From assembly GCA_949317995.1 (NCBI GenBank), contig OX439050.1, forward strand, positions 54,871,777 through 54,935,776: a stretch of DNA of 64,000 nt, written 5' to 3'. This DNA comes from Acholoe squamosa (lineage: Eukaryota > Annelida > Polychaeta > Phyllodocida > Polynoidae). The position numbers and the translations under genes are program-made. The notes beneath the pieces were generated by a model. That model was given only the letters and a program-made list of their open reading frames with translations, did not search any database and was not told where the DNA came from. Positions within the stretch are counted from its first letter, which is position 1; every line of letters starts with the position of its first letter. Below, piece after piece: positions 3,042-21,827 of this stretch.

Positions 3042-5957
3042 TCCAATCTTGGTAATAGATTTTTAGTGAGACCACAGAAATACATACAGTGCATTAATTC
3101 CTATGCAAGACATAGAGGAAGGTCATATCATTGCATGAACGTGAAGACTTTATGCAATCCTTAAGTCGGTTGCATTGTGTAGCAGGTTTGATTAACTGAC
3201 AGTGTAACCTTGCTTAATTTTACTACGTGCTCAAAAGGTAGAATCCCACATGGCGATTTAGGGCTCAAATATCTCTGCGATTTTGTCACTTGCACTCTTG
3301 GGGCCTTCCTGAGCCCCTATATCGCAAGGATAACTGCTTAATTGGTCTCAATTCACTGTTGGATTTGGTATAAGTTGAACAATCCTTGCGATCTAAGAGC
3401 CCAGGAAGACCCCAAAATCGAAAGGGACAAAATCGCAGAGATAGTTGAACCCTTAATCGCCATGTGGGATTCGACCTAAAGAAACACATACATGTACATG
3501 TAGCTTATCAAGGCCCCCACTTATGGTCAATGTTGACAGCTGCTCTCTAGAAACTAACCCTGTGCATTAAAACCAAAACTAGTACGGACGAAGAAAATCA
3601 ACTTTCATTCTGTACTTGTTGTTTTTGGACTTCCCTATGTTGTAGGTCTAGCGTCCTTTGTCAGGAATGAAAAAGAAAGAACATGGTGTATGTTGATATA
3701 TGAATAGGGTTTATTCTCGAAATAAGCAAGTATAAATTATTTACAGGACATTCCTTTACTGTTTCTAAAGAATGCATTGTTATATACAGTTAAGATCCTA
3801 TTAGAACAAAGCGACACGCCGACACGAGTATGAGTATAGTTTAGCAATCAAACTGATCTCTTTATATGAAAATAAACCTTTCTACACCAGGCCTTTATTG
3901 CACATTATTTGAACGACAGTTATTGATAATGCATTATTATCAGAGCCAGCTGACAACTGCAAGCGTGTACTATTCATATCATATTGCTACAATACTTGGA
4001 TGTATTTGTGTATACTGATGATCTAAAAGAAGTCAGTGCATGAATGCTGGGGGTTAACTTAAGCACATTTCTGAATGTAAATGCTTAGATAACTGTTTAA
4101 GCACATTCAAGTTATGTAAAATACATTAAGGCTTATAGGTGCTTAAATGTCTGGCATTTACTGCCCTTAATTGTGCTTAAATAGTGACTTTAACCTATTG
4201 ACAGTTTGCTTAAATCCACATTCTTGCAGTGAATGCATTCACTTCGTTTTCCTCGCTGGTTACTTTTGAATATTTACAAGTGAAGACCCATAGGTCCAAC
4301 CAATATCCCATTCTAATTACATGAGGAGGTTATTTCGGAGTATGTTCCTCAGCACCCACCTCACCACTCGGAACCACCACTCTGTCCGATATTCATTTCA
4401 CATTTATCTCTATTTCTTCAGGCAATTTGCATAATCATTGTGAGTATTAGCCAGTAAAGGGCCAAGAAATATCCAATGGTCACAAATAAACTAAGCACAA
4501 AATTCGAGACCCCATCTTAAGTTGTATAGAGTAGTGCATGAATCATGAAAGAAGAAAGGTCCCCTTCACACTAATGCTTCTTGGAGGACTCTTGAAACAT
4601 GGAATCACAGAATGTCATAGTAGTTGAGAAAAACACCAACAGAGCGGTCACGATAAGTGCCAATTATCTTACACAATGAGAACACATTTGCAATAGTTAT
4701 GTTACATCAGCATTGGGTTTAATTGGGCTTTTAACTATTGTCTTTAGGAGAAATGAAGTTGGCTATAAAAGAAGGCAAATGTCATTGGAAATATCAAGAA
4801 TGTTCCAAACCATGGTACCATTACGCTCAATAATCAATCTAAAATATGTCATTCCATTAGGTAAAAGACATTTAGATACTGGGGCTGAGAACTTACTATG
4901 GTAGCTAAATTCCTGGTGTCAATAAATGACAGATCTTTGGGCTTTTGAAACCTCTTCAGATAGTACGGTATTCTGGCTTTGATCTTGAGTAAGAGTGTAT
5001 GAGATGTTGTCAGCTATTGAACTTTCAGACAGCCCGTAGTTCCCAGAGTATTTAGTCATTCCTTATAATCCACAAAAGGGGAGACCCAAACCTTTCATCA
5101 CACACTATAGAAGTATAGGGGGTCTAGATACGCATGTAATTTTGGAAATACATTTAGTAGAACAAATGTTATTTAATTTGTTTTGAAATAAATCCACAAA
5201 TTCCAGGTGTATTTTATTATACCCATCACCTTATATGTCATGATACAGGGCTTTTCTGTGGGCTGGCTCCACTGCGTCGTTTGGGTCCATTTTATGGTAA
5301 TCGGACCAATTTGAATAGCAAATGTATGGGCAAAATATCAATTAGCAGAAGATGGACACGACTGACACAAAAGTACATCATCTCTGCAGTACCTCCCCAT
5401 GTCAAATTTCACTCATTTCGATGGTATACAATGGGACTGTTTGTTCATAACAATGAAATGATCTCCACCCACTGAGTGCTGTTGAAATTGATAAACACAG
5501 GCGGAGTACGAAGACTGGTGAAACCGGTTTAATCATTTTCAGGTCTGGCTTTAACCCAAGCAGGGGCTATTAGTCAATATCTCTTAGTTAGAATATTAAA
5601 TTTAACAGCGATGTGGTAATATGCTAAACTAGGATATACCTAGCCATGAAATAAACCCTTAAACTATATTATTGTCTCCTGGTTATTACATTATGCAGTG
5701 TTATATCCCATTCAAATATTAATGGTATTTTTCCTTTTCTTATTTTTTCATAAGTTATGTGAATTAGGACCATTATTGAAATGTCTATTAAACTCGTGCT
5801 AAAATTGATAACAATTATGTGTTAATGTGCTCAATAATGTCTGCCATCTACAACTTTACAAATGACAGTGAAACCCTGCAAATAAGTAACACACCCATAT
5901 AGTAGAATCCACACCCCACTTTGCGCCCAGGATATAGGTGCACCCATATGAACGGTT
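3042..5957. other. 3' flank of the coiled-coil gene
   Basis: Downstream of the stop codon. A candidate polyadenylation hexamer AATAAA lies near 3870. Apart from the hairpin MITE at 3236-3478 I see no gene. The open frames at 4713-4904 and 5281-5475 have no splice context and look like chance. Confidence 0.5.
3236..3478. mobile_element. Hairpin MITE with arms of about 90 bp
   Basis: The left arm beginning AGGTAGAATCCCACATGGCG is repeated in inverted orientation at the right end (CGCCATGTGGGATTCGACCT). The similarity continues through ATCTCTGCGATTTTGTC and GGGGCCTTCCTGAGC, giving arms of about 90 bp around a centre of about 50 bp. No coding capacity, so a non-autonomous DNA element. A weak match to its outer end occurs near 62470. 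Confidence 0.75.
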
Positions 5958-7462: not shown

Positions 7463-10400
7463 CTGAAATCAACAAAGCGTTTTTGAGATGATTTTTCAAT
7501 TCATGTAAAAAGGCATCTTCTGTGCCAATATGGCAAATCTCTGTACACATCAGGTGGCTTAGATTCTCCAGTAAGTGAGAATAGTCTAGCAAGTGTACTT
7601 TTCTAAGTGATTTCATAATGACAACAATTCCCATTAATCTTAAATGCTCTGATGGGGTGACTGATCAGATGAATACGTGGACTAAGCAGCGAAAATGTAC
7701 CTTGTCCTCCGCTGGCCAGAACCTCAGAAAATCAAAGTTGCTGGAGGGTGAAACATGCATCAACTTTTCATTTCGTCTTATATCTCAGCAGGTAGTGCCC
7801 CGATCAATGCAATTAAAACAGCTCTGAAACGCCCAGAAGTCCTACTCTCAATTCTTTTGGTGCCATTATGCAGAAAGCAGGACCTGGGACTGGTTTAATG
7901 GCTGAGCATTGGCTAACTTCCGAAGTGACTCCTCTCAAGAACTTCTATGTTCCAACTGACCCTGGTCCAGTCCGGTCTCATTGAAAGGAAGTAAAAACCA
8001 TTGTACGAGGGTCAGTGAGCAATCAGAGTGCATCAGTTGGCTATTTCCTAACGCACTACAACTGCACCCCTCCAAGTCGTATCAACTTTCCCATAGGCAT
8101 AACATTGAGATCTAAGATGTAGGGCTGTGTGTGATCGTAGTGCATTAAGAAATGACCTCCAGAGATGACTCTGATCCCCTATCTGGACCTAAGACTACCT
8201 CCTCTTTTCCTTCTATTCTCTCTGGAGGGCATTTCGAAGAGATGGCATATATACCATTTTGAAATGCCTTCCTGTACATATAATACACTTACCAGTACAT
8301 ATGCGTCCATTCAGTGCTAGATTGTAACCGTTGCCACACGTACAGTAATGTCCACCGACTGTATTGGCGCAAGTCTGAGCACATCCGCCATTGTTCTTTG
8401 CACACTCATCAGTGTCTGAAATATATACAGACATTTGGTATCATGAGGGTGTTTCACAGCCAGAACTGTATGGACCAGTCATCTTAAGTAACATAATTGT
8501 ATGAATGAAATATGAATTATAGATATGTATACATGTACTTCTCAAGATATACTCGTGTGACTAATTTTAAATTTCAGCTCCTCAACGCAAGTGTCAGAAG
8601 CACATATAAGAACGATTACACATGTTTGAGCAGAAGTTAAGATGAAACCATGACATTTTAGATAGCACCTTAAACCGCTTTCCAAGCAAAATGTGGAAAT
8701 GGATTTTAGAATGCAATAAAATACACAGGTGAGAGTTTATCCAAGCCTGACACGTTGTGCATACCTTTGCAGTTTGTACCATTGACCAGGGTGAAGGTGT
8801 AACGACAGTAACAGATGAACCCGTGAGCTGTGTCTCTGCAGTTTACTTCACCATAATCCACTGTAAGGGGAAATAAAAGACACATATGATATGCAGTGTT
8901 GTTGATGTAAAATATTCAGATGAATAAAGTATAATTTACTTTACGGAGCTTCTAGAACTAATGAAAGATATGTAAAGGCAAGTTGCTGTTATTTAGGAAT
9001 TTTCAGAACCCACCCACCCCCTTGTTACTGTTTTTGTATGGAACATATAGAAGAACCCAAAGACCCCCCATCACTATGCACTGACGTTATTGTTGAACGT
9101 TCCCTAATAATAAAATGTATAAATGTCATGGCACAATTTGCCTCTGCTATGTCATAAAGGGAAATGTCTAAAGGCTTTGTCTAACACCCCCACGTTCTAG
9201 GATTCACACAAACATGCATGCTATTGCAGATTAAAGAATTTGATTTGATTTCTCCCGGGGTAAAGATGATGGCTGGCACAGTTCTCATTTTATTTTACAT
9301 AAGGGGTTTTCTTATTATATTCGCCTTGCCATCTCCCCATTAACTTGCCGACAAACTGATTCCTTGTAGAAAGAACGTTATGGAGTAAATACTGTCCACC
9401 TTATAGAATAATGATTAGACTCCTGTTTAAAGGGGCTGGTTCATGGGATTTTCAAATGCGTTGTATTTTATTTTATGCTGCGGTAGTTGTATAAGGTATT
9501 TTGCATGATAGATTTTAAGAAAAAAGAATTGATACCAAAGTTATGTAAAGAAAATTAATTAAACTTGCTATTACATTTAACTCTCAGAAGACATAGAACC
9601 ATATTGGCAGAGGTTTATACTTTCAATTTGCGATTGCCATCTGCTGGGAATATCCAAGAAAGAAGTATTTAAAGAGACCACATTTAGATTTAGAAAGTAA
9701 ACTAGGGTCCATTAAGAGCACACTAGGGTCCATTCAGAGCACATAATGATATTGAATATGGGGACAGTGTTTGCACATTTTATTATAATATGGGTGTAAC
9801 CAGTTCAGTTAATGGTCCCTGGGCCTAAGTACCAAGATTACTCATACTATTCTGTGCCAGTTTTTCTTTATGAACACAATAGTTTTGCTCATTAGAGAAC
9901 TGGAGGGTCTTGCCAAAAGAGAAACGTGAACCAGAAAAGTAAAACGTGCACGTTTTCATACTGCTAAAAGTATACTCGTCAGTCCATGGGTTAAAACGTG
10001 TATGGATGGTTAAGACTGCATGCGGCTGGAGGTATCTAAATCACCTGTAATGACCATTAAGTTGAATTAACCTATATCATGAAGAATATGGCATGGGGTA
10101 GAAGTGTAATTTGTCCATTCTCTATTTTCTATGCACCCCATTACTGAGAAGTTATTTGGAAATACTGTGAAAACGATTTAGGCCATGCACGTTTCCATCA
10201 GTAATCTCTGAAAAAATTATTGAGGTTCTTCCTCGTTTACTTTTGGCAAGACCCTCCTGGTCACTTGTACTGGACCAAGATTGTAACAGTGAAAGGCCCA
10301 TGTAGGCAACTACCGTAAAACACCACCTATAAGCCGAATCTGACTTTGAGACAAAAAGAAATATAAAATAAATCGACCATGGTTTAAAATGTAGAATATG

Positions 10401-11665
10401 TCCACTTGGCAAAAATATATTTGTTACCAGAGGCAGATAAGTAAATATTGACAAAAGACCTACGTTGAGGACATCTGAAGTTAGGTACGTTGTTGTAGAG
10501 TGTGTATCCGTCCCTACAGGTACAGTAGTAATGGTCGTACGTGTCAACGCATACCTGTTGACAACCGCCATTATTATCCACACACTCGTCTGTCGCTGTA
10601 CACAAATACAGAAACCACAGGTTAATACTTAAATCAATTAAATGACACAAAGGGCGCAGTATGTGAATAGTGCCGTCCTTGGGAAGTAACTACTGGGGGC
10701 CATTTCTTAATGCGCTACGATCGCGCACAGCATTACAACTGCAAAATCTCAATGCTACTCCTATAGGAAATTTGGTACGACTGGGAGGAAGCAGCCGTAG
10801 CCTGTTTAGAAATTGCCTGCAGGCCAGAGCTGCATTGTAAGCATCACGCTAACCCTGTAGGAGTAGATACGCTCTAAAAGGACTGGCATGATGCCTCCAT
10901 GTCGTGCTGGTGAACGGAGTCACTGGCACTAAATCTATTTGCCATGATAGCCGAGTAACACAGACTTGGACGCATCACCAAATTAGCTTATTCAAATGTA
11001 GAATGAAAAAGGAAATACAGTGCCAACAAGTAAACTGATGATTCTAAATGCATGCACCCTACAACGCCCAGAGCTATCATCAAGCCGGTAGGGATAGAAT
11101 GGTGTGCACTTAATATTTAGTGCACCATTCAGATATGTACACGGTTACACACAAAGCACTCAATGTACTCAATTCTTTTTTTTTACTGAAGTAGAATGTC
11201 CTGATATAAAGGGACCTTAAAAATCACTGACAACATATTATAATCTATTTTAGAACCAATTATAAGTCAATTTTTAAATGAGCTCAAATCTTATTACGTC
11301 AAGATTCTCATCATCATGAGTCCTTCCTCATCCTAATACAGTAATAAAGAGTGTATGTGTGCAAGAAACTAATAAAAAAACTTTGTATAATCAGTTCATA
11401 TAAGCTCTCAAATGTCTATTACTGGTGATATTGGTATAGTTTGTTCTGTTACGGTCAAATAATCTATTTTTGTCCAAAAAACAGTAACGTTGGAACATAG
11501 GTAGGATATAACATAGGAGTCAATATTCCTCCCTTCTTGAAAAAAAAAAAAGAGAGAAAAAGTTCTGTAACACAGGTTTTAGTACTGGTTTTTAGTCATG
11601 AAAAGGTAAGTCATGACATGAATATTTCTATATGCTTATAAGCTAGTATTTGGCTCTAAAACCTC

Positions 11666-11703
<38 letters not shown>

Positions 11704-14700
11704 TACCACACATATGTGACTTAGGGGATCAGTGGATTAGGGGCTTAGTTCCTTAGGGGCTTATTGAAAATTAAGGTGTTAGGGGCTTAGTACAAGTATT
11801 GCCACCTGGGGGTGCATGACCAAACTATAAGTCTGTGACTTAGGGGGTAATAAAATGTTTGTGACTTAGGGGCTTAAAGTAGGACAAGATATCTGTGACT
11901 TAGGGGTTTATTGTAAAATCTCTGTGACAGAAGGTATAAAGGTATGATGTTTGTAACTTAGGGGCTTAGGGTAGGAAAAAATGTCTGTGACTTAGGGGCT
12001 CATGTTAAAATGACTGATGTACATGTAATAGGCATAAGGATAAATTAGGATGAAAGGTAAATAACTTAGATGCTGACGATAAAATGTTTGATACTTGTGG
12101 ACCAAAGTGGTTGTGACTTAGTACCTTAGGTTTCAAGAAAACATAGCGATAAATTGTTATGGTTTAAGTGATTAGGTTAGATAGTATGTTACTTAGAAGC
12201 TTGAATTTAGACTTTTGGGGGTTAGAGCAAATTGCTTGAATGGGCTTTGAATGAATCTTTGTAGGGTTTATGTTAAAATTCTAGCAGCTTGTTTGTGGTA
12301 AACTGATGGTATTTTAGAGGTATAGTACTGATGATTATTATTAGGACTGTTTACACTTTGTGGCTTAGGGGCTTATCTGAAAAAAATATTACACATTAGA
12401 GATTTAGAGTAACCCATGTTTGATTCAAAGGGGTGACCAGGATTTTTCAAGTGTTACTAAGCTCCTAAGTCACAGATTGACTTACGGGCTTAGCATGAAA
12501 TGTTTGTGACTTAGGGAATTAGTTAAACTGCTTGTACTTTAGAGGCATAGTCTAAAATGTCAGGGGATTAGTGAAACTGTTTGTACTTTAGGGGCTTAGC
12601 ATAAAATGTTTGTGGCTGAGTGAAACTGTAACTTAGGGGCTTAGCATTAAATGTCAAGTATCAAACACACACCACATGCACAGTGAAGGCGGAAGGTAAA
12701 GGTACCGAAATGGGATCACCTGACAAGAACAACTGTTCCAAGTTTCCAGGAACACTGAGACACCAAGCCCAAATCATCAGACTGAGTCATGGTTTACATA
12801 AAAAAATAAATCCCCCCCAAGCAACTTCTAAATAAACATGTCTGAGACATGCTACCTGCCACCCCTCTAAATGGATAGGTCCATTTCCTGGCAGTGCCAA
12901 GAAGCCTAGAATCAGACTTACACAGGGTTCCCACGTGTCATGGAATGGCATGAAATAAAAAGTTGTCAGGGAAAGTCATGGAATGTCATGGAATTTCTGA
13001 AAAATGCCTTTTTGAGTCATGGAAAGTTATGGGAAAACAATATATTTATTGAAAATTCCATTAGACCCTTTTTTCCAACTCAATTGCAGGAATTCTGCTG
13101 AGAGGTTACTCTGATAATGTCTAAAATTACTTTAAAATGTCATGGAAATATAATTTGGATTTTGTGGGAACCCTGCTACATTAGGCAATCATAGGAAGAG
13201 GGCAAGAAGCAGTGCATGCAGGGAAAGTACCACAACCTTCTGTAATAAATAGAGGCCATTTTGGAGCTTACAAATTCTTGGAAACCTGGTACTGAGTTAC
13301 TACAGCTGTTTCATACTTTTGAAAAAAAAAAGAACCCTGCTTCTTTTACAATAGCAAGGACACATCTTACATAAATGATAATGTGACTTTCTTAATCTAC
13401 AGGTAAAAAAAGTCTGTACCTGAGATTTTCATGGAGGTATGAAGATTGTTTCTGTAGGAAATTAAGCCCTCAACATGGCTTGTAACTCAAATGTCATTCT
13501 CCCAGACACAATTTCGGCCAGACAATTTTGGTCATTTTGGGCACATTTTACCCCCCTGGAGCCCAAAATATGCATATGGGACCATCAAAACCCATATGTA
13601 ACATGAAGATCTCATCCAGCCTGACACTTTCAGCCAAGGAAATAGAGGGGGAAACTAAATTTCGAAGAGTAGGGGCTGAAATACCTCCAAATTCGTCATA
13701 TGCAAACCTTCTATGATTTTCGACCTAATATAGACAATCTATAGTTTAGGAAACTGCAAAGAAATAACAACTATTTAATGTTTTTTTCTTTTTAAAAGTA
13801 ACATTTTTATTCAGTTTAGTCAAAACAGTAGAGTAGAAATATGTCAATCTATAATTACAAATAGAATGTTTAAAATTTCATAAGCTTGGTATTGATAATG
13901 CCAGTCATTCTGTAAATGTTCCTATCAACTATCAAATCCAAGTTTCTCTATGTGCTAATCACATAAAGAAGTAACAAACTGTCAATTGTCATCAACATTT
14001 ATTTGTGTATCTGTAAATCAAAGTATTCTAATGGTCAAAGTCTGATATGCATAGCAAACTTGGAACATTAACCACATCCACACTCCTTGCCACCAATGTA
14101 ATTTTGAGTTGGCCATACAAATATACTAGAGAACTATCAATGGGCTTTACTTTTTTTTTCATTGTATCAATAACAATAACAATTATTAAGTCCTCTGGAC
14201 ACAGAATTACTAATTCTTAAGTAGCCAGTTTATCTTTTGTCCGTGTTACTAGAGGCCTATACCATGAGAGTATATCTTTGGGAACTAATGCTTAAGTAGC
14301 CAGTTTATCTTTGACTTTATCACCTGCCACCTTCTTCTCTGGAGAATCCCACCCTCCATCTTGGAGTAAGAAATGGCTGTCTCACACTCTTTTTGAGTCA
14401 CAGTTCTGCCCTCTTTTAGAGCAGTTGCACACAAATGGCGAAGCTCTGTGATCTCCTTTGGTGTCCATTTTACTCTAGCTGTTAAAAAAATGGATATTAG
14501 GTATTAAAATCATGACATCTTGTCTGACTATACTATTATCACTGCTAGTGTAATACCTCTGTGTTCTACTCACCTTTCATCGAAAGGTGCTTCCAGGCTA
14601 ACTTGTGAAGGAAGGTTTGTAGCAATGTTATTGAACCTCTTGATGATCATTACCCCGCTATGATTCATTTTTAATGGCCTTTTAATGTAAAATTGAGACA

Positions 14701-17700
14701 GTTGATTGTTTTTGATTTTTCAATCTAAAACAACTTTTTTAGCAGCTATGAAAAAAATGTTATTCTAAAACTTATCGTTTACTTAGTCAGAGGAAGTCTC
14801 AGAAGTCAATCTTTCAAACACAAAAGACAAGAGATAAAATATTTGCACCTACTACTGCAATCGCGCTTCTTTTTTTGCTTTGTTGTAACAACTGAAATGT
14901 ATTTAAAGGGTTGAAGTTAATGATGATGCTACTATGCCATTTAAATGCTATAAATGATGAATTAAATGGGTGTAGGAACCTTTTAATCGATCCATGATAA
15001 AGCGAGAACAAAATTTCACATATTCAATATTTAAATTGATCTACCCTTTAGGTGCATCTTCCAAGCACCATCATCTTTACTTTATAGCATGAGGCATAGG
15101 CAGCGGACCATGAGCATTTATGTCATAATTTTGCAGTGCCACCCTGTACTGGTGATAAATGACACAGGATGTGTGAGAACATGTTACCTAGCATCAAAAA
15201 CATTTACATCCATCAAAGGATACTAAATAGTACAATTGTTTCCACTGACCTGTTGGGGCATCATCTGGTTGGTAGGCTTTCATGGGGGCATCAGCTGGGT
15301 AGTAGGTGTTCGTGGGTGCATCAGCTGGTTGATTGACTTTTGCAGGTGCATCAGCTGGTTGGTAGGCATTCACTCTCTCTTCAACAAGTGACTCTACCAT
15401 AGTAAATAAGAGATTCATTCAGCACAATTTCTTGGACATGTAATGTCCTCAAATATTGAGGTCTATTCATTGTTTTTCAGTCTTACTCAAATTATGGATT
15501 TTGCACTCAATCTAGTCACACCTCACACAAAGAATAGGCATTTGCTTTGCCTAATAGAATCTACCTAAAGACAGTCTGAGACATAGAGCTGATGATATTG
15601 TACTATAGAACAGTATATGCCGAGAATTTACCTTTGCTCCCCAGTATAGTATGCAATAAATGGTTGAAAAACTGAGCTAATATTTAGTGACAACATATTA
15701 ATTCTTGACACTTAATTTATTGCTCATTTTCTCATGGAATAAAAAATAGAAACTTGCATCTGTGCAGTCGGCAAGGGAACACCTGACTTGGTTCAGGGTC
15801 CATGCCTAAGTGCATGAGGGGACAGGGGGGACATATCCCCCCAACTTTTGGCCAACTCCTCAAAAGGTCAAAACTAAAAGGTCAAGCAAAGGGGTCAAAA
15901 ATTGCAGAAAACCCCCCTGGTCCCACCCACTCTGAAACTGCTTCCCACACCCCTGAAGTGAGGTATTTCAATTCGGACCTGACCAGTCTTTTATCTCATG
16001 GTTAATATGTTGAGATACTGGAGTGCCATAAACATATCATGACATCAAAGATTCAAAATGCTGATTTAAACAAACCTTACACACATCTAGCGATGATGTA
16101 ATTATGTCCAGGTGATATAGTTTGATGATTTAACTATGAGATAAATGCAAATAAGCACCTGTAGGAGCATGTCTGACAGTTATCTCACTTACCGCATAGG
16201 TGCTGCATTGCATTCCAACCTATGGGCGTCATGCGATACAGTACCCGTATTGCACATGAGATAACAATTAGACAGACTACCACTAGTGAACCTTTGCCTA
16301 TATCATGACATTTTTTTCACTGTGCCTTATAGAATGTTAATGAAGTCAGCATATGCCTTGTATGTTGCTATCTAGTCACAAAGAATATGCAGACAACGAA
16401 GCATACTATAGAATGCAAATCTTTCCACTGACCTGTAGGCCTATCAGCTGGTTGGCAGGCATACACTTCAGCTTCATCAAAGATCTCTACAATAGTAATT
16501 AAGTTATGGAATTTAAAAAAATGGGGTTAACCATTTAAACCAAATAACTGAAATAATCAACATTAGATACTGCAAGACCTTTTACATTAAGTATGTATCT
16601 ATACACTTGACATATTTGCAAATTCAATTATGTGTTTCATTTATTTTTCATATCAATAGTCCACTAGGCCTTTTTATATAGGAAATGTATGGCTCAATCA
16701 AGCAACAGGGGCCAAGTGGACGATGGGTTTTAAATTACCATGATCTCAACACAGGTACCTTACTTTGGTAAAATTGGACAATTTGATATGCTATGAAAAT
16801 AAATACTTTCTTAATGAAAGTTGTGCATATATACTGAGTGGTGCTGTTGATACATGAAAGCAGGAATATGCGTCAGGGACAAATGTTACACAACTCCCCA
16901 AATCCTAGGTGACTTTACCAAAATATATAGAGTGTTTTGGGGCAGGTATTTACCTACAAATTAGATCTGAAATGAAATGTTTGAAGGAATTTTTTTAAGT
17001 TCCTCTGAGCCCCTAAGGCACATATTCTGAGTAGGCCCCTTAGTCACATACCTTTATCCAAAAAGGTCAAAGTCAATTCTATTCTGAGATGAAAATGTTT
17101 GAAGGATTTTTAAGTTCCTCTGAGCCCCTAAGTCACAAATTCTGAGTAAGCCCCTAAGTCACATACCTTTATCCAAAATGTCAAAGCCAATTCTATTCTA
17201 AAATGAAATGTTTGAAGGACTTTTAAGTTCCTCTGAACCCCTAGGGCACAAATTCTGAGTAAGCCCCTAAGTCACATACCTTTATCCAAAAGGTCAAAGT
17301 CAATTCTATTCTGAAATGAAAATGTTTGAAGAATTTTTAAGTTCCTCTGAGCCCCTAAGTCACAAATTCTGAGTAAGCCCCTAAGTCACATACCTTTATC
17401 CAAAAGGTCAAAGTCAATTCTATTCTGAAATGAAAATGTTTGAAGGATTTTTAAGTGTCCTCTGAGCCCCTAAGTCACAAATTCTGAGTAAGCCCCTAAG
17501 TCACATACCTTTATCCAAAATGTCAAAGTCAATTCTATTCTGAAATGAAAATGTTTGAAGGATTTTTAAGTTCCTCTGAGCCCCTAAGTGACAAATTCTG
17601 AGTAAGCCCCTAAGTCACATACCTTTATCCAAAATGTCAAAGTCAATTCTATTCTGAAATGAAAATGTTTGAAGGATTTTTAAGTTCCTCTGAGCCCCTA

Positions 17701-20182
17701 AGTCACAAATTCTGAGTAAGCCCCGAAGTCACATACCTTTATCCAAAATGTCAAAGCCAATTCTATTCTAAAATGAAAATGTTTGAAGGATTTTTAAGTT
17801 CCTCTGAGCCCCTAAGTCACAAATTCTGAGTAAGCCCCCAAGTCACATACCTTTATCCAAAATGTCAAAGCCAATTCTATTCTAAAATGAAAATGTTTGA
17901 AGGATTTTTTTTAAGTTCCTCTGAGCCCCTAAGGCACAAATTCTGAGTAAGCCCCTAAGTCACATACCTTTATCCAAAATGTAGAAGTCAATTCTTTTCT
18001 GAAATGAAATGTTTGAATGATTTTTAAAGTAGAACTAAGCCCCTAAGTCACAAACTCTGAATAAGCCCCTAAGTGATATACATTTATCCAAAATCTTGGA
18101 AATTGATTACACTATATATAAAAAGGCATTACTTTGTCGCTGGTCTATTTGCAGTCTAGGGGGTTTAAAAAAAGAGATGAAAACGGACAGGGGGGGGCTA
18201 TAATTTACAGCTCTGGGGTCAGAAAATGAGGGAAACGTAGGGGGTGGGCTAAAATTTGCAGTCTAGGGGATTTAAAAAGAGATGAAAACAGACAGGGGGT
18301 GGGCTAAAATTTAGAGTCTAGGGGGTTTAAAAAGAGATGAAAACGGACAGGGGGTGGGCTCTGGGGTCAGAAAATGAGGAAAACGTAGCAGGGGGCTAAA
18401 ACTTACAGCTCTGGGGTCTGAAAATGAGGAAAACGTAGGGGGGGCTAAAATTTGCAGTCTAGGGGGTTTAAAAAGAAATGAAAACGGACAGGGGGGCTAT
18501 AATTTACAGCTCTGGGGTCACAAAATGAGGAAAACATAGGAGGGGGCTAAAACTTACAGCTCTGTGGTCAGAAAATGAGGCAAACGGAGGGGGGGGGCTA
18601 AATTTTACAGCTCTGGGGTCAGAAAATGAGGAAAACGTAGGGGGGACTAAGATTTACAGCTCTGTGGTCAGAAAATGAGGAAAACGTAGGGGGGGGCTAA
18701 AACTTACAGGTCTGGGGTCAGAAAATGAGGAAAACGGAGGGGGGGGCTAAAATTTACAGCTCTGGGGTCAGAAAATGAGGCAAATGGAGGGGGGGGGCTA
18801 AAATTTACAGCTCTGGGGTCAGAAAATGAGGAAAACATAGGGGGGGGCTAAAACTTACAGCTCTGGGGTCAGAAAATGAGGCAAACAGAGGGGGGGGGCT
18901 AAAATTTACAGCTCTGGGGTCAGCTGAGAGCTTTTCCTCTTTGTTTTAGGCCAGGCCCACGTCACTGCTTGCCCCTCAACTTCGAGCTGACATTTTTTAT
19001 CAAATTATTACCATCTTTCCTGAAAACTTTTCTCAACGAATTCCCAGCTCTACATGATTAAAATAAAAAAGGCCAACATGGAGAAAGATTGAGGGTTGAA
19101 AGTAAGATAAAGTAATGGACACTTCTAGGAGCAAGTCAAGAGAGACTATAGAGCTAGGGCAAGGGAGACCTAAGGCTAAGGCTTAGCCTCAGTCTAGGCC
19201 TGGGCAAAGTCAAAGAGAAGTCTTGGTAGACTTATAACAATAGGCCTACTATTTGGGGCACTGTATGAAATAGAACAAAATGACCAGGGTCGATTTATGG
19301 ACTATTCACACATAACTACAGCTAGAAATAAAATTGTCTTACCTTTGAAATGAGTCACAATCTTCTCATTGAGGCTCCTCCTTGATTCACTTGTGTCCTT
19401 TCACAAAAAGTCCTCTGGGGCATATCCAAGGGCAAGTTTGTTCCTTAGGCCCTGGCCCTTAGGGGCTTACTGTTCCTCTGTGGCTTCCTGGTATTTAAAT
19501 TGTACTGACAAATCAGGGCAGAGGGCCCAGTGTTGGTTAGGTGAGTTTGTGCCTTGGGGGCTTACTGGTCCTCAGTGGCTTCCTGGCACTTGAATTGTAC
19601 TGACAAATCAGGGCACAGGGTCCAGTGTTGGTTAGGTGAGTTTGTGCCTTGGGGGCTTACTGGTCCTCAGTGGCTTCCTGGCACTTGAATTGTACTGACA
19701 AATCAGGGCACAGGGTCCAGTGTAGGTTAGACAAGTTTGTGCCTTAGGGGCTTAGTGGTCCTCTGTGGCTTCCTGGTACTTACTTTGTACTGGCAAACTA
19801 TGGCACAGAGACCAGGGTAGTGTCAAATGTTTGTGTCTTAGGGGCTTAATGACGTTACAATCTCCAAGCAGAGTATTTGAAATCCCAAAGTACTAGACAT
19901 TACAGATATCTGTTTGGAGAGCTATATAAAATTTGCTCAGTTTTGCCACCAGAGGCCAGCACCTTATGGTCTTCGTACATACACAGAGGGAACATACATT
20001 TTTAAGCAGAGTTTATGACTTAGGGGCTAAATTTGAAAGTGGGTCTCAGATGAAAGCTGAGCCCCTAAGGATCATCTGGACAAAGTTTGTAAGATTCTTA
20101 GGGGCTTAAGCCCTTAAGTCAAACTAAGCCCCTAAGGTGTCCTCAGACACACAGAATAGCCCCTAAGTCTCATTTATGTGGC

Positions 20183-20272
<90 letters not shown>

Positions 20273-21827
20273 CTGTCATAACGGTAAATTAATAAAGTAC
20301 TAGAATAATAATTCTGGGTCAATTTCATAAAAAGTGAAAAACGTTTTTCAGTATTTGTCTAAATCAATCACATAGGATCACCATAAAGCATGGATGCAGC
20401 AAAGGTATACATCAATGGAAGGTAAAATCAAGCATGTATTCACTTACCATCTCTCACAACTACATTACTGCCACTCGAGGCAGGAGCGCCTTGTGGACCG
20501 GGTGCACCAGGAGCTCCGGGTGCACCTGGGATCGATTTCCCTACAGGACCAGGAAACCCGGGTTGACCAGATGGACCAGGGCTTCCAGCTACACCATGTA
20601 AACCAGGAGGTCCTCGGGCACCAATCCCACCTGGGAATCCGGGCGCTCCTGGCAAACCTGTCGCTCCTGTTGGTCCAAATCCACCCCCTTGTGAACCTCC
20701 GCTGCTTGGTAATCCGGGGATACCAGGGTTACCTTGTAGCCCGGTAGCACCAGGTGCCCCAGGTGGTCCCTGTGGACCGGCTGGACCTGCAGGACCCGGG
20801 GGACCAATCGGCTGTGGGAGCGAGGGCTGATTTACCAGATGTTGTTGTCGTGGTGGTGCTGGCGGTGCAGGTGCTGATCGTATTGCAAAAAAGGGTTAAT
20901 CGATTTATACCTCACTAAAATATTCATAGACCTAAAACAGAATGGGTAAACAATTATGCTACCCTAGTTGTTGATACTTAAATGCCTTCTTGCTCAACTA
21001 CCGGGATTCTGTATTCATTGTTTTAGGACATCAATCACACTCTTATTTAATACATTTTATTTCATTGCACAACACCCTGCACTGATACCCATCAACTATA
21101 CACTAAGACTTGTCCTTTTAAATTGGTCAGTTAGCTCCTGAATATTTACCAATATTATCATGCTAACAATATTGTACACATTATGGGCCTCTTTTAAGGG
21201 GCTGAACTGGTAAGTTTAACTTACCCCTTGCCTGGAGGACAAACAGCACGATGATGGCTGCAGTCAGGATGGTACCCAGCACCAACATGAACCATCCCCA
21301 CGGTGTCGGTACCGGACATGATTTGAAAGAACTGCCAATCCTCGAGTACGCCTCATCATATACTACTCCATCACCTAAAAGTAAAACCATAATGACAAAT
21401 GGCTCCCCACAGAATAAGATCAGGGTATAGAGTTAGGGTCAGGGGAAGGGTTAGGGATAGTGTTAGGGATAGAGATAGGGTTAGGGATAAGCTTAGGGTT
21501 AGGATAGAGGATAATGTTAGGATCAGGGGTGGGGATAGGGATAGGGATAGACATAGGGTCAGGGTCAGGGATTGGGATAGGGATAGGGTTAGGGTAATTA
21601 AGGGATAGGTTAGGTAGGGTTCATTGTTTTAAGGGTAAGAATTCCTTTGGGGTGTGTTAGAATTCCAGGTGAGGGGGGTGCCTATGATCACACTCACCTT
21701 GTTTGTTGCCAGGTTGTTGAACCTCAGTGTGTCCATTCTGTACCGGGACTTCTTCATAATCCTTTTTGTCGTTCATGTAAGGGTCCTCTGGGGCGGGGTA
21801 ATTCTGGTATGCTGGATTGCTATACAT
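7374..21827 (-). CDS. Type II transmembrane collagen-EGF protein
   Basis: Coding exons in order: 21698-21827, 21225-21374, 20448-20873, 10464-10595, 8765-8860, 8293-8415, 7374-7462 (stop). Every internal exon is a multiple of 3 and bounded by phase-1 introns, and all have AG/GT signals. Exon 1 gives a 43-residue acidic cytoplasmic tail starting [10 protein letters not shown], with a possible NPxY sorting signal and no signal peptide. Exon 2 carries the membrane helix [20 protein letters not shown] (about residues 69-90). Exon 3 is an interrupted Gly-X-Y collagen domain of about 115 residues ([19 protein letters not shown]). Then come EGF-like modules: a six-Cys module ([14 protein letters not shown]), a four-Cys module, a six-Cys calcium-binding-type module ([16 protein letters not shown]), and a final DVNEC module that stops after four Cys. 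Probably a trimeric cell-surface or matrix protein with the C-terminus outside. Some exons may be missing between the collagen and EGF parts. The exons at 15250 and 16433 fit the phase too and could be alternative. Confidence 0.75.
8039..8158 (-). mobile_element. Small palindromic MITE (CTACGATCGC family), copy a
   Basis: About 120 bp with imperfect inverted ends (AAATGGCC... type: ATTTCTTAATGCACTACGATC on one side, GTAGTGCGTTAGGAAAT on the other). Homologous to 10697-10817 and to the split copy at 43806-43898/45069-45102. It lies in the intron between two EGF exons and is oriented opposite to copy b. Confidence 0.6.
8293..8415 (-). CDS. Calcium-binding-type EGF exon
   Basis: 123-nt phase-1 exon encoding [16 protein letters not shown]...[20 protein letters not shown]. 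Six cysteines at normal EGF spacing. The D-x-D-E-C start and aromatic H-Y-C-T-C segment fit the calcium-binding subclass. Confidence 0.85.
8765..8860 (-). CDS. Four-cysteine EGF-like exon
   Basis: 96-nt phase-1 exon encoding [20 protein letters not shown]...NGTNCK. It has only four cysteines, so it is a partial EGF-like module or the C-terminal half of a split one. It contains an N-glycosylation sequon, NGT. Confidence 0.7.
10464..10595 (-). CDS. First EGF exon
   Basis: 132-nt phase-1 exon encoding [20 protein letters not shown]...[20 protein letters not shown]: a complete six-Cys EGF module with the DNNGGC loop common in calcium-binding EGFs. The donor is GTAGGT and the acceptor GTGTACAG. 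Confidence 0.85.
10697..10817 (+). mobile_element. Small palindromic MITE (CTACGATCGC family), copy b
   Basis: An uninterrupted family member. It begins GGGGGCCATTTCTTAATGCG and ends in the inverted counterpart GCCGTAGCCTGTTTAGAAAT. It serves as the reference that shows where the LTR palindrome at 43.9 kb was inserted. Confidence 0.65.
11671..11701. repeat. (CA)n microsatellite
   Basis: About 15 CA units directly outside the left end of the 8.5-kb candidate element. A second CA run starts exactly at its right end. Confidence 0.95.
11720..12655 (+). repeat. Dispersed GTGACTTAGGGGCTTAG words
   Basis: At least a dozen copies of TGACTTAGGGGCTTAG and degenerate forms, spaced irregularly at about 30-100 bp, separated by unrelated AT-rich sequence. 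This is not a simple tandem array, since only the word is conserved. Confidence 0.85.
12923..13175. mobile_element. hAT-like MITE
   Basis: Perfect 12-bp inverted ends CAGGGTTCCCAC / GTGGGAACCCTG. The interior repeats the word GTCATGGAA several times and is non-coding. CAGGG-type termini are typical of hAT elements, but I could not establish a clean 8-bp duplication. It is nested inside the 8.5-kb candidate element. Confidence 0.65.
14285..14478 (-). CDS. Terminal exon, Myb/SANT-like domain
   Basis: Strong acceptor (T-run then AACAG), 64 codons including the stop. The pattern W-T-P-K-E-I-T-E-L ... K-E-C-E-T-A-I ... [10 protein letters not shown] fits a three-helix HTH layout. Domain identity rests on the pattern alone. 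Confidence 0.5.
14285..16486 (-). CDS. Nested exons with QPADAP repeats and a Myb/SANT-like tail
   Basis: Three exons joined in phase 1: 16433-16486 ([18 protein letters not shown]), 15250-15393 (starts [17 protein letters not shown], with about four degenerate copies of a 9-11 residue [YN]QPADAPxx repeat) and 14285-14478, which ends in TAG. The last exon reads [17 protein letters not shown]...[10 protein letters not shown]...[17 protein letters not shown]: tryptophans about 50 residues apart with helical basic segments, like Myb/SANT-like DNA-binding domains in repeat-associated proteins of marine animals and fish. The first two exons are clear paralogues of each other. The 5' end is unresolved: a donor at 19341-19342 closes a short phase-1 frame, and the collagen exon at 20448 would also splice in phase. 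A DNA-binding protein encoded by the surrounding element, or an alternative 3' end of the collagen gene, are both possible. Confidence 0.55.
15250..15393 (-). CDS. QPADAP-repeat exon
   Basis: 144-nt phase-1 exon. Repeat units [29 protein letters not shown] and YQPDDAPT stand in tandem after an acidic leader ESLVEERVN. The proline-rich periodicity suggests an extended linker. Confidence 0.65.
16433..16486 (-). CDS. Single-unit QPADRP exon
   Basis: 54-nt phase-1 exon whose product ([18 protein letters not shown]) aligns with the first unit of the 15250-15393 exon, including acidic leader and donor GTCAGTGG. The two probably arose by exon duplication. Confidence 0.6.
16975..18110 (-). repeat. 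Tandem array of about 112-bp units, about 10 copies
   Basis: Each unit contains GTTCCTCTGAGCCCCTAAGT, CTGAGTAAGCCCCTAAGTCA and TACCTTTATCCAAAATGTC, followed by an AT-rich half. Each unit carries two copies of the CTTAGGGGCTTA word in inverted orientation relative to the left array. Divergence is low in the middle and rises toward both edges, as expected for unequal crossing-over. Confidence 0.9.
18135..18925 (+). repeat. G-rich minisatellite of about 50-60-bp units
   Basis: Units of the form GGTCAGAAAATGAGGAAAAC + GTAGGGGGGG + CTAAAATTTACAGCTCTG, about 14 copies, with variants (first copies GGGTTTAAAAAGAGATGAAA). Runs of 5-9 G every unit make the plus strand prone to G-quadruplexes. Confidence 0.9.
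19425..19860 (+). repeat. About 110-bp tandem repeat, about 4 copies
   Basis: Units contain GGGGCTTACTGGTCCTCAGT, GGCTTCCTGGCACTTGAATT and CAAATCAGGGCACAGGGTCC. A CTTAGGGGCTTA-type word opens each unit. It shares only that word with the other arrays. Confidence 0.85.
20183..20268. repeat. (CA)n(TA)n microsatellite
   Basis: About 11 CA units followed by about 32 TA units, beginning at the right end of the 8.5-kb candidate element. Confidence 0.95.
20448..20873 (-). CDS. Collagen triple-helix exon
   Basis: 426-nt phase-1 exon. A proline-rich leader ([11 protein letters not shown]) precedes Gly-X-Y triplets interrupted at two or three places ([20 protein letters not shown]). It ends SGSNVVVRD. 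Single-exon coding of the helix differs from the 54-bp exon pattern of fibrillar collagens and fits transmembrane or minor collagens. Confidence 0.9.
21225..21374 (-). CDS. Transmembrane exon
   Basis: 150-nt phase-1 exon. [20 protein letters not shown] leads into a 22-residue hydrophobic helix ending VLQARG. It fixes the membrane topology of the collagen-EGF protein as type II. Confidence 0.85.
21417..21625 (+). repeat. Degenerate TTAGGG-like hexamer array
   Basis: Runs of TTAGGG, TAGGGA and TAGGGTCAGGG, about 30 hexamers with frequent variants, in the first intron of the collagen-EGF gene. It resembles interstitial telomeric sequence but is too degenerate to be a recent telomere fusion. Confidence 0.85.
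21698..21827 (-). CDS. First coding exon, cytoplasmic tail
   Basis: The ATG at 21827 is in the context CCAAGATGT, and its exon ends at the GTGAGTG donor. It encodes [20 protein letters not shown] followed by [12 protein letters not shown]. There are five Tyr in 43 residues, including YxNP- and NPxY-like sites that could be phosphorylated or bind adaptors (inference). Confidence 0.8.

Follow-up and report, generated by a model that had tools for sequence, protein, structure and literature searches.

The segment at positions 11700..20183 of the window (the whole 64,000-nt stretch of Acholoe squamosa DNA analysed, assembly GCA_949317995.1, contig OX439050.1; coordinates without a contig name are window positions) is a real mobile element that moved recently. 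At least 12 copies with both ends were found in the genome, and those carrying its last exon, e3, differ by only 0.6-2.0% from the window copy (left 5 kb). The element is probably non-autonomous and derived by deletion from a DNA transposon with a gene for a tyrosine-recombinase-like (YR-like) protein that ended in a three-helix C-terminal domain. It most likely belongs to the YR-type DNA transposons with microsatellite targets, an unusual kind of animal transposon. The parts of the window copy are as follows.

11700..20183, no strand: whole element, type Ia deletion derivative, bounded by the ends common to other copies
11670..11699, plus strand: (CA)n target run on the left, resuming at 20184 on the right
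11700..11705, plus strand: left spacer part, ACGATA here, ATGATA in 12/14 left ends listed
11706..11727, plus strand: left inverted end CCACACATATGTGACTTAGGGG, with 13 exact genome-wide matches
11720..12639, plus strand: left subterminal CTTAGGGG words, nine in number
14285..14478, minus strand: exon e3, the last, with predicted three-helix C-terminal domain and stop codon
15250..15393, minus strand: exon e2, linker with YQPADAP-like repeats, AG/GT borders
16433..16486, minus strand: exon e1, linker, AG/GT borders
16966..18094, no strand: array of 114-bp units with CCCCTAAG words
18147..18923, no strand: array of G-rich units of about 50 bp
19457..19848, no strand: array of units of about 95 bp with CTTAGGGG-like words
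20160..20181, minus strand: right inverted end, 19/22 like the left
20182..20183, plus strand: right spacer part, CC; GGCC in 13/13 right ends (≤3 mismatches)

The search covered the animal's own 1.48-Gb assembly and only the best candidates were scored, so copy counts are lower bounds. With the element as query, at least 93 matching pieces were obtained, many of them 97-99% identical, and several stop precisely at an outermost base of the segment as delimited in the first-pass annotation. The copies with both ends are distributed across eight contigs. The first-pass annotation had proposed a transposon and had named the absence of other copies sharing its ends as the result that would overturn the proposal; the test was run, and the ends are shared exactly. 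The right 24-mer (including the two extra C) was present at 13 places with ≤3 mismatches (7 exact, 5 with one, 1 with two), compared to 0 in the reversed control, and the left pattern gave 30 matches with ≤3 mismatches vs 9 in its reversed control. These 30 comprise 13 exact occurrences, 1 old relative (73.6% identity over 300 bp), 7 places that are right ends belonging to these copies, and a remainder of 9, three of which were examined and had no similarity to the element at E 1e-6.

The inverted ends, the contact of both ends with CA runs and the repeated short word described in that annotation were all borne out. The 19/22 match of the two ends was not reached once when 200,000 pairs were sampled at random from the window, excluding any that touched the segment, and the CTTAGGGG/CCCCTAAG word occurs 33 times inside the element vs 0 times in the remaining 55.5 kb of the window. 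The bounds given there, 11706..20181, correspond to the real inverted ends, but the constant sequence extends beyond them, by 6 bp on the left, where the window copy has ACGATA and most copies have ATGATA, and by 2 bp (CC) on the right.

In the flank comparison, whose 14 rows include both elements of a tandem pair and the old relative, ATGATA lies outside the left inverted end in 12/14 (the exceptions being ACGATA in the window and ATAAAA on C9), and CC lies outside the right inverted end in 13/13. The base preceding the spacer is C in 14/14 left flanks, and the base following CC is A in 13/14 right flanks and T in C18. Under a strict rule, CA or CATA runs were found at 11/14 left and 9/14 right flanks, against 0/55,200 bases within such runs of ≥14 bp in the rest of the window, which is a small background. 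At the repeat sites the microsatellite is unbroken once the element is removed. These sites cannot discriminate a duplication; the insertions at C17 and C18, both located outside simple repeats, exclude one of ≥3 bp, consistent with a YR transposon, for which no staggered-cut duplication beyond a short shared core is expected. When the termini are joined end to end, the arms are inverted at 12/15 positions (hand count) around an asymmetric 8-bp spacer, CC-ATGATA. Arms of 11-13 bp and a spacer of 6-8 bp are usual for a YR site according to the available part of PMC3212892, and the joined ends of the putative closed circle likewise show inverted arms around a spacer within this range. Altered spacer letters were seen in only two left ends, those of the window (11700-11705) and of L012 on C9, with unchanged arms in both; the changed letters could be target letters retained after strand exchange, or due to chance.

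The same flanks bear on the possibility that a terminal inverted repeat (TIR) element merely carries the YR-like gene as passive cargo and owes its movement to an unknown DDE transposase that duplicates 2 bp, CA, at the target. Counting the final C of GGCC as target, CA could be such a duplication in 13/14 right flanks, but the C18 right flank reads C followed by T, the termini are asymmetric (6 bp vs 2 bp outside the arms) and no DDE gene was noticed in the copies read, so that this explanation is quite improbable.

For the YR-type reading, the coding evidence comes from longer copies. The link was first suspected because animal YR-like proteins with a similar tail domain exist, and a YR probe gave 42 genome matches, one of them weak (E 0.087) and located inside the inner of two tandem copies at C10:57.7M (C10:57700585-57712610), upstream of e1-e3 and in the same orientation. 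Two exons were delimited at this place.

C10:57706244-57706365, e1-e3 strand, upstream: exon X2, acceptor CTAG, donor CAG/GTAAGA
C10:57706701 to about 57706886, e1-e3 strand, upstream: exon X3, with an in-frame stop near its end

X2 and X3 are likely, though not proven, to be the catalytic end of a YR-like protein. Aligned with the YR-like proteins of three other loci in the same genome (L036, L037 and L038), they contain the invariant L, R, A-T, Q, G-H, Y-R and L at 23-25% identity, and the spliced exons matched these proteins in hhalign with Prob 93.6 and E 2e-7. In the shuffle control, the comparison with the YR-like family gave 2.6e-7 vs 0.077 for the best of 20 shuffles. The spacing R+26 H+9 Y is equal in X and L036; in five fetched bacterial and phage YRs, GH+9 Y was found in 5/5 and an R-to-H distance of 23 residues in four. 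X2 and X3 are separated by a phase-0 intron after AT..Q, and L038 has an intron of this phase at the corresponding position. In addition, the copy at C9:78.96M, which is heavily cut by LINE pieces, contains three minus-strand fragments in more than one frame, ordered along the N-terminal half of the YR-like family (profile columns 282-345, 386-431 and 430-501, with X at 636-726). Their P values were 0.0039, 0.0045 and 4.5e-5, with the best of 20 shuffles each at 0.057, 0.079 and 0.12. By eye, an NKRRAG box was recognised in the C9 copy where L036 has NRKRSGE.

Several observations weigh against this assignment. The probe by which X was located was an ad hoc sequence, and Pfam, NCBIfam and PDB sequence searches failed to recognise the family as YR, returning only sub-threshold matches to unrelated families. 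The profile match to the five known YRs was weak, with P 0.0015 (Prob 17) when the X exons of the element were included and 0.0056 (Prob 6.6) without them, P 0.05 (Prob 1.1) for L036 and L037 alone and P 0.023 for X alone. Against XerC/XerD only, P was 0.013, 0.041, 0.24 and 0.42, the last being X alone in the wrong register; six single-sequence controls gave P 0.32-0.9 for the family and 0.18-0.62 for X. In the printed alignment with known YRs, the Arg box and GH line up and the Tyr does not, the second-box His is replaced, and no stretch corresponding to that of the beta-turn Lys could be located in the element. The C9 copy has the right end, has no left end in the DNA examined and lacks X2 and X3. 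No intact YR gene was present within these ends among the copies seen, and X3 is interrupted by its stop.

The X exons have a single close copy in the assembly, the next-best match being at 30%. Since X has no second close copy and e1-e3 show no purifying selection, the copies were recently mobile yet their helper is apparently missing; it may now be gone, be absent from this haplotype or be too diverged for detection. Nine of the loci matched by the YR probe contain YR-like open frames of 665-785 aa, one with a stop (C2, C3, C4, two on C6, C14, C15, C16 and C17); that on C16 is L037 (C16:41703494-41705758), whose YR frame is followed by acidic linker-like frames. These loci possibly represent a separate YR family that is more intact.

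Capture of pieces of a YR gene by a rolling-circle element related to Helitrons or Helentrons was also considered. Helentrons and DINE-1, as described in the available part of PMC4067079, resemble the present element in that they make no clear duplication, contact microsatellites, and have tandem arrays at the centre and inverted repeats near the ends. Insertion here is between C and A (C before the element in 14/14, A after it in 13/14), not between A and T or T and T, the termini are ATGATACC/GGCC and not TC..CTRR, and the arms lie 6 and 2 bp in from the ends. No Rep/helicase was noticed among the frames read, the genome not having been searched for one, and nowhere else in the genome is there a close match to X that could be its parent. 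We therefore regard capture by a rolling-circle element as improbable.

Exons e1-e3 have AG acceptors, GT donors (e3 ends in a stop instead), phase-1 introns and a single open frame, confirming the phase-consistent minus-strand exons of the first-pass annotation. Its assignment of these exons to the element also held, since e3 is present in 11/12 both-end copies (window, C18, C17, C2, C9:78.2M, two on C4, C10:47.1M, the inner copy at C10:57.7M, C11 and C16:29.6M), the twelfth being a different deletion type. The predicted structure of e3 consists of three helices (pLDDT 83.6), and no match to e3 was found in Pfam and PDB sequence searches; its Myb/SANT identity is unproven, the fold being modelled. 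Across the 11 copies, 18 nonsynonymous and 2 synonymous coding changes were counted in e1-e3, so no purifying selection is evident from these sequences. The e1 acceptor is lost (AA for AG) at C16:29.6M, the only such case among copies with e1. An e3-like last exon (30-31%) was also observed at L033 (C7) and L035 (C18), where the two chromosomes have in common, at 96% identity, a 365-bp segment containing this exon and adjoining (TA)n runs.

Because YR-like exons precede e1-e3 in the longer C10 copy and N-terminal YR pieces are present in the C9 copy, e1-e3 are probably the 3' end of the YR gene, encoding the tail of the recombinase and not a Harbinger-type accessory protein. In the opposing explanation, the element is a non-autonomous PIF/Harbinger-like element (PHIS), with the SANT-like exons as a remnant of the DNA-binding ORF. 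Three helices are modelled for e3, and according to the part of PMC4482050 available, a Myb/SANT protein is encoded by most PHIS groups, and insertion of Spy elements leaves no duplication. However, the C17 and C18 insertions exclude a duplication of ≥3 bp, the target is CA and not TWA, AT, ANT, CWG, TNA or AAATTT, and the exons upstream of e1-e3 are YR-like. No long frame was found in the window, C18, C9, C4:73.4M and C10:28.4M copies, with no DDE family search made and not every copy read. A PHIS origin is accordingly very unlikely, and the earlier comparison with PIF/Harbinger is not supported, the upstream gene in longer copies being YR-like and not the Myb/SANT partner of a DDE transposase.

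For a YR-type transposon, the following route of movement is proposed. A helper YR supplied in trans would join both ends into a circle, whose junction would form the recombination site (arm GTCTCATTTATGTGG, spacer CC-ATGATA, arm CCACACATATGTGAC), giving the predicted circle joint GTGG-CCATGATA-CCAC. The circle would then integrate by strand exchange at a target CA, mostly within (CA)n or (CATA)n. Lambda integrase binds its own arm sites, and by analogy the C-terminal domain might, more speculatively, bind the 33 CTTAGGGG words as arm-type sites. We tentatively propose, at somewhat less than even chances, a new superfamily of animal YR transposons with a full site-specific recombination system, in which paired core arms and an 8-bp spacer would be combined with dozens of arm-type words inside the element, to which the C-terminal domain of the recombinase would bind, a CA crossover would make microsatellites a safe harbour, deletion derivatives would arise as in Ac/Ds and composite units would move as one.

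The pattern of deletion junctions indicates that the copies are internally deleted derivatives of one larger element; the window copy, which lacks a transposase, is such a derivative and is non-autonomous, as first supposed. Three deletion types were compared, and each has a breakpoint at or in the 114-bp array, the junction differing between them. They are Ia, that of the window (7 copies), Ib (3 copies, which also lack exon e1) and that of C10:28.4M. The outer copy at C10:57.7M, which is the twelfth both-end copy, and C10:28.4M have the left end in common and a different interior, and C9:78.96M and C6 have only the right end in common within the DNA examined. The inner C10:57.7M copy retains about 1.9 kb extra before the array, of which the 276 bp next to the array match C9:78.96M at 96%; judging from the gene order, this extra block appears to be original and not inserted. 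At C10:57700585-57718306, two tandem elements are separated by a (CATA)n run, whereas the CATG/CACG run bordering the pair continues without a seam from the outer left end to the far right end. Most simply, the two neighbours would have moved as a single 17.7-kb composite unit.

Individual copies showed further changes. In the C11 copy, an LTR retroelement of about 17 kb (L016-L018) with gag-pol-like and envelope-like frames is nested between element positions 3102 and 3098. The C18 copy (L009) contains a nested repeat of about 600 bp with inverted ends AACCCAGATAGCCCT, inserted at a TTAA site, and the C17 copy contains a different, unrelated insert of about 600 bp, both absent from the window copy. 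At L021 (C10:28386900-28393300), the copy ends within the ~50-bp array and runs directly into (CATA)n, without the usual right end.

The element is flanked in the window by the following frames, and from these frames it likely lies in an intron of a collagen-EGF gene.

20443-20895, minus strand: collagen-like frame
10471-10584 and 8297-8404, minus strand: EGF-like frames

A minus-strand frame with a transmembrane-like stretch was observed at 21184-21432, upstream of the collagen frame, so that the host gene possibly encodes a membrane-anchored collagen that also has EGF repeats. A degenerate AGGGTT/AGGGAT array, with telomere-like units inside the chromosome, is present at 21422-21595.

Little is known of where YR-type DNA transposons of animals end and what they target. 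Here, one young family displays ends, spacer, target and gene order, which makes circle formation, spacer exchange and microsatellite targeting directly testable. It also illustrates how such families escape notice, with recombinase exons missing in most copies, an enzyme unrecognised by Pfam and insertion sites hidden in simple repeats.

Among known systems, FRT/loxP and lambda att sites consist of inverted arms around an asymmetric spacer, with separate arm-type sites in addition in lambda. The joined ends of the present element appear to be built in the same way, whereas exchange here seems limited to the CC-A part of the spacer, as read from the sequences.

PIF/Harbinger and the other PHIS elements are similar in their inverted ends and Myb/SANT-like domain (unproven here), but as described in the available text of PMC4482050 they have a DDE transposase and either TWA, AT, ANT, CWG or TNA target duplications or an AAATTT target. 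Helentrons and DINE-1 share sub-terminal inverted repeats, central tandem repeats and the lack of a clear duplication, while a TT target, a 3' palindrome and Rep/helicase are described for Helentrons (PMC4067079, in part). Endogenous nimaviruses, in the part of PMC10871703 available, have YRs that insert into microsatellites, with (TAACC)n or 28S rDNA as targets, and those at (AT)n with inverted repeats have a Ginger2-like DDE enzyme. Compared by description and not by sequence, they resemble the present element, with its putative YR, in the link of such an enzyme to simple-repeat integration and differ in being large virus-derived elements with other targets.

Cryptons, according to the available part of PMC3212892, are DNA transposons with a YR enzyme that are thought to be circle-borne, have non-autonomous derivatives and occur in animals including a mollusc. 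The present element resembles them in its putative YR, its probable movement as a circle and its non-autonomous derivatives. In the same source, animal Cryptons are described without terminal repeats, none having been found, and without a C-terminal domain, whereas here the inverted ends match at 19/22 and, in the longer copy on C10, the putative YR box is followed by e1-e3. This element is likewise set apart from Cryptons as described by its introns and its large internal arrays.

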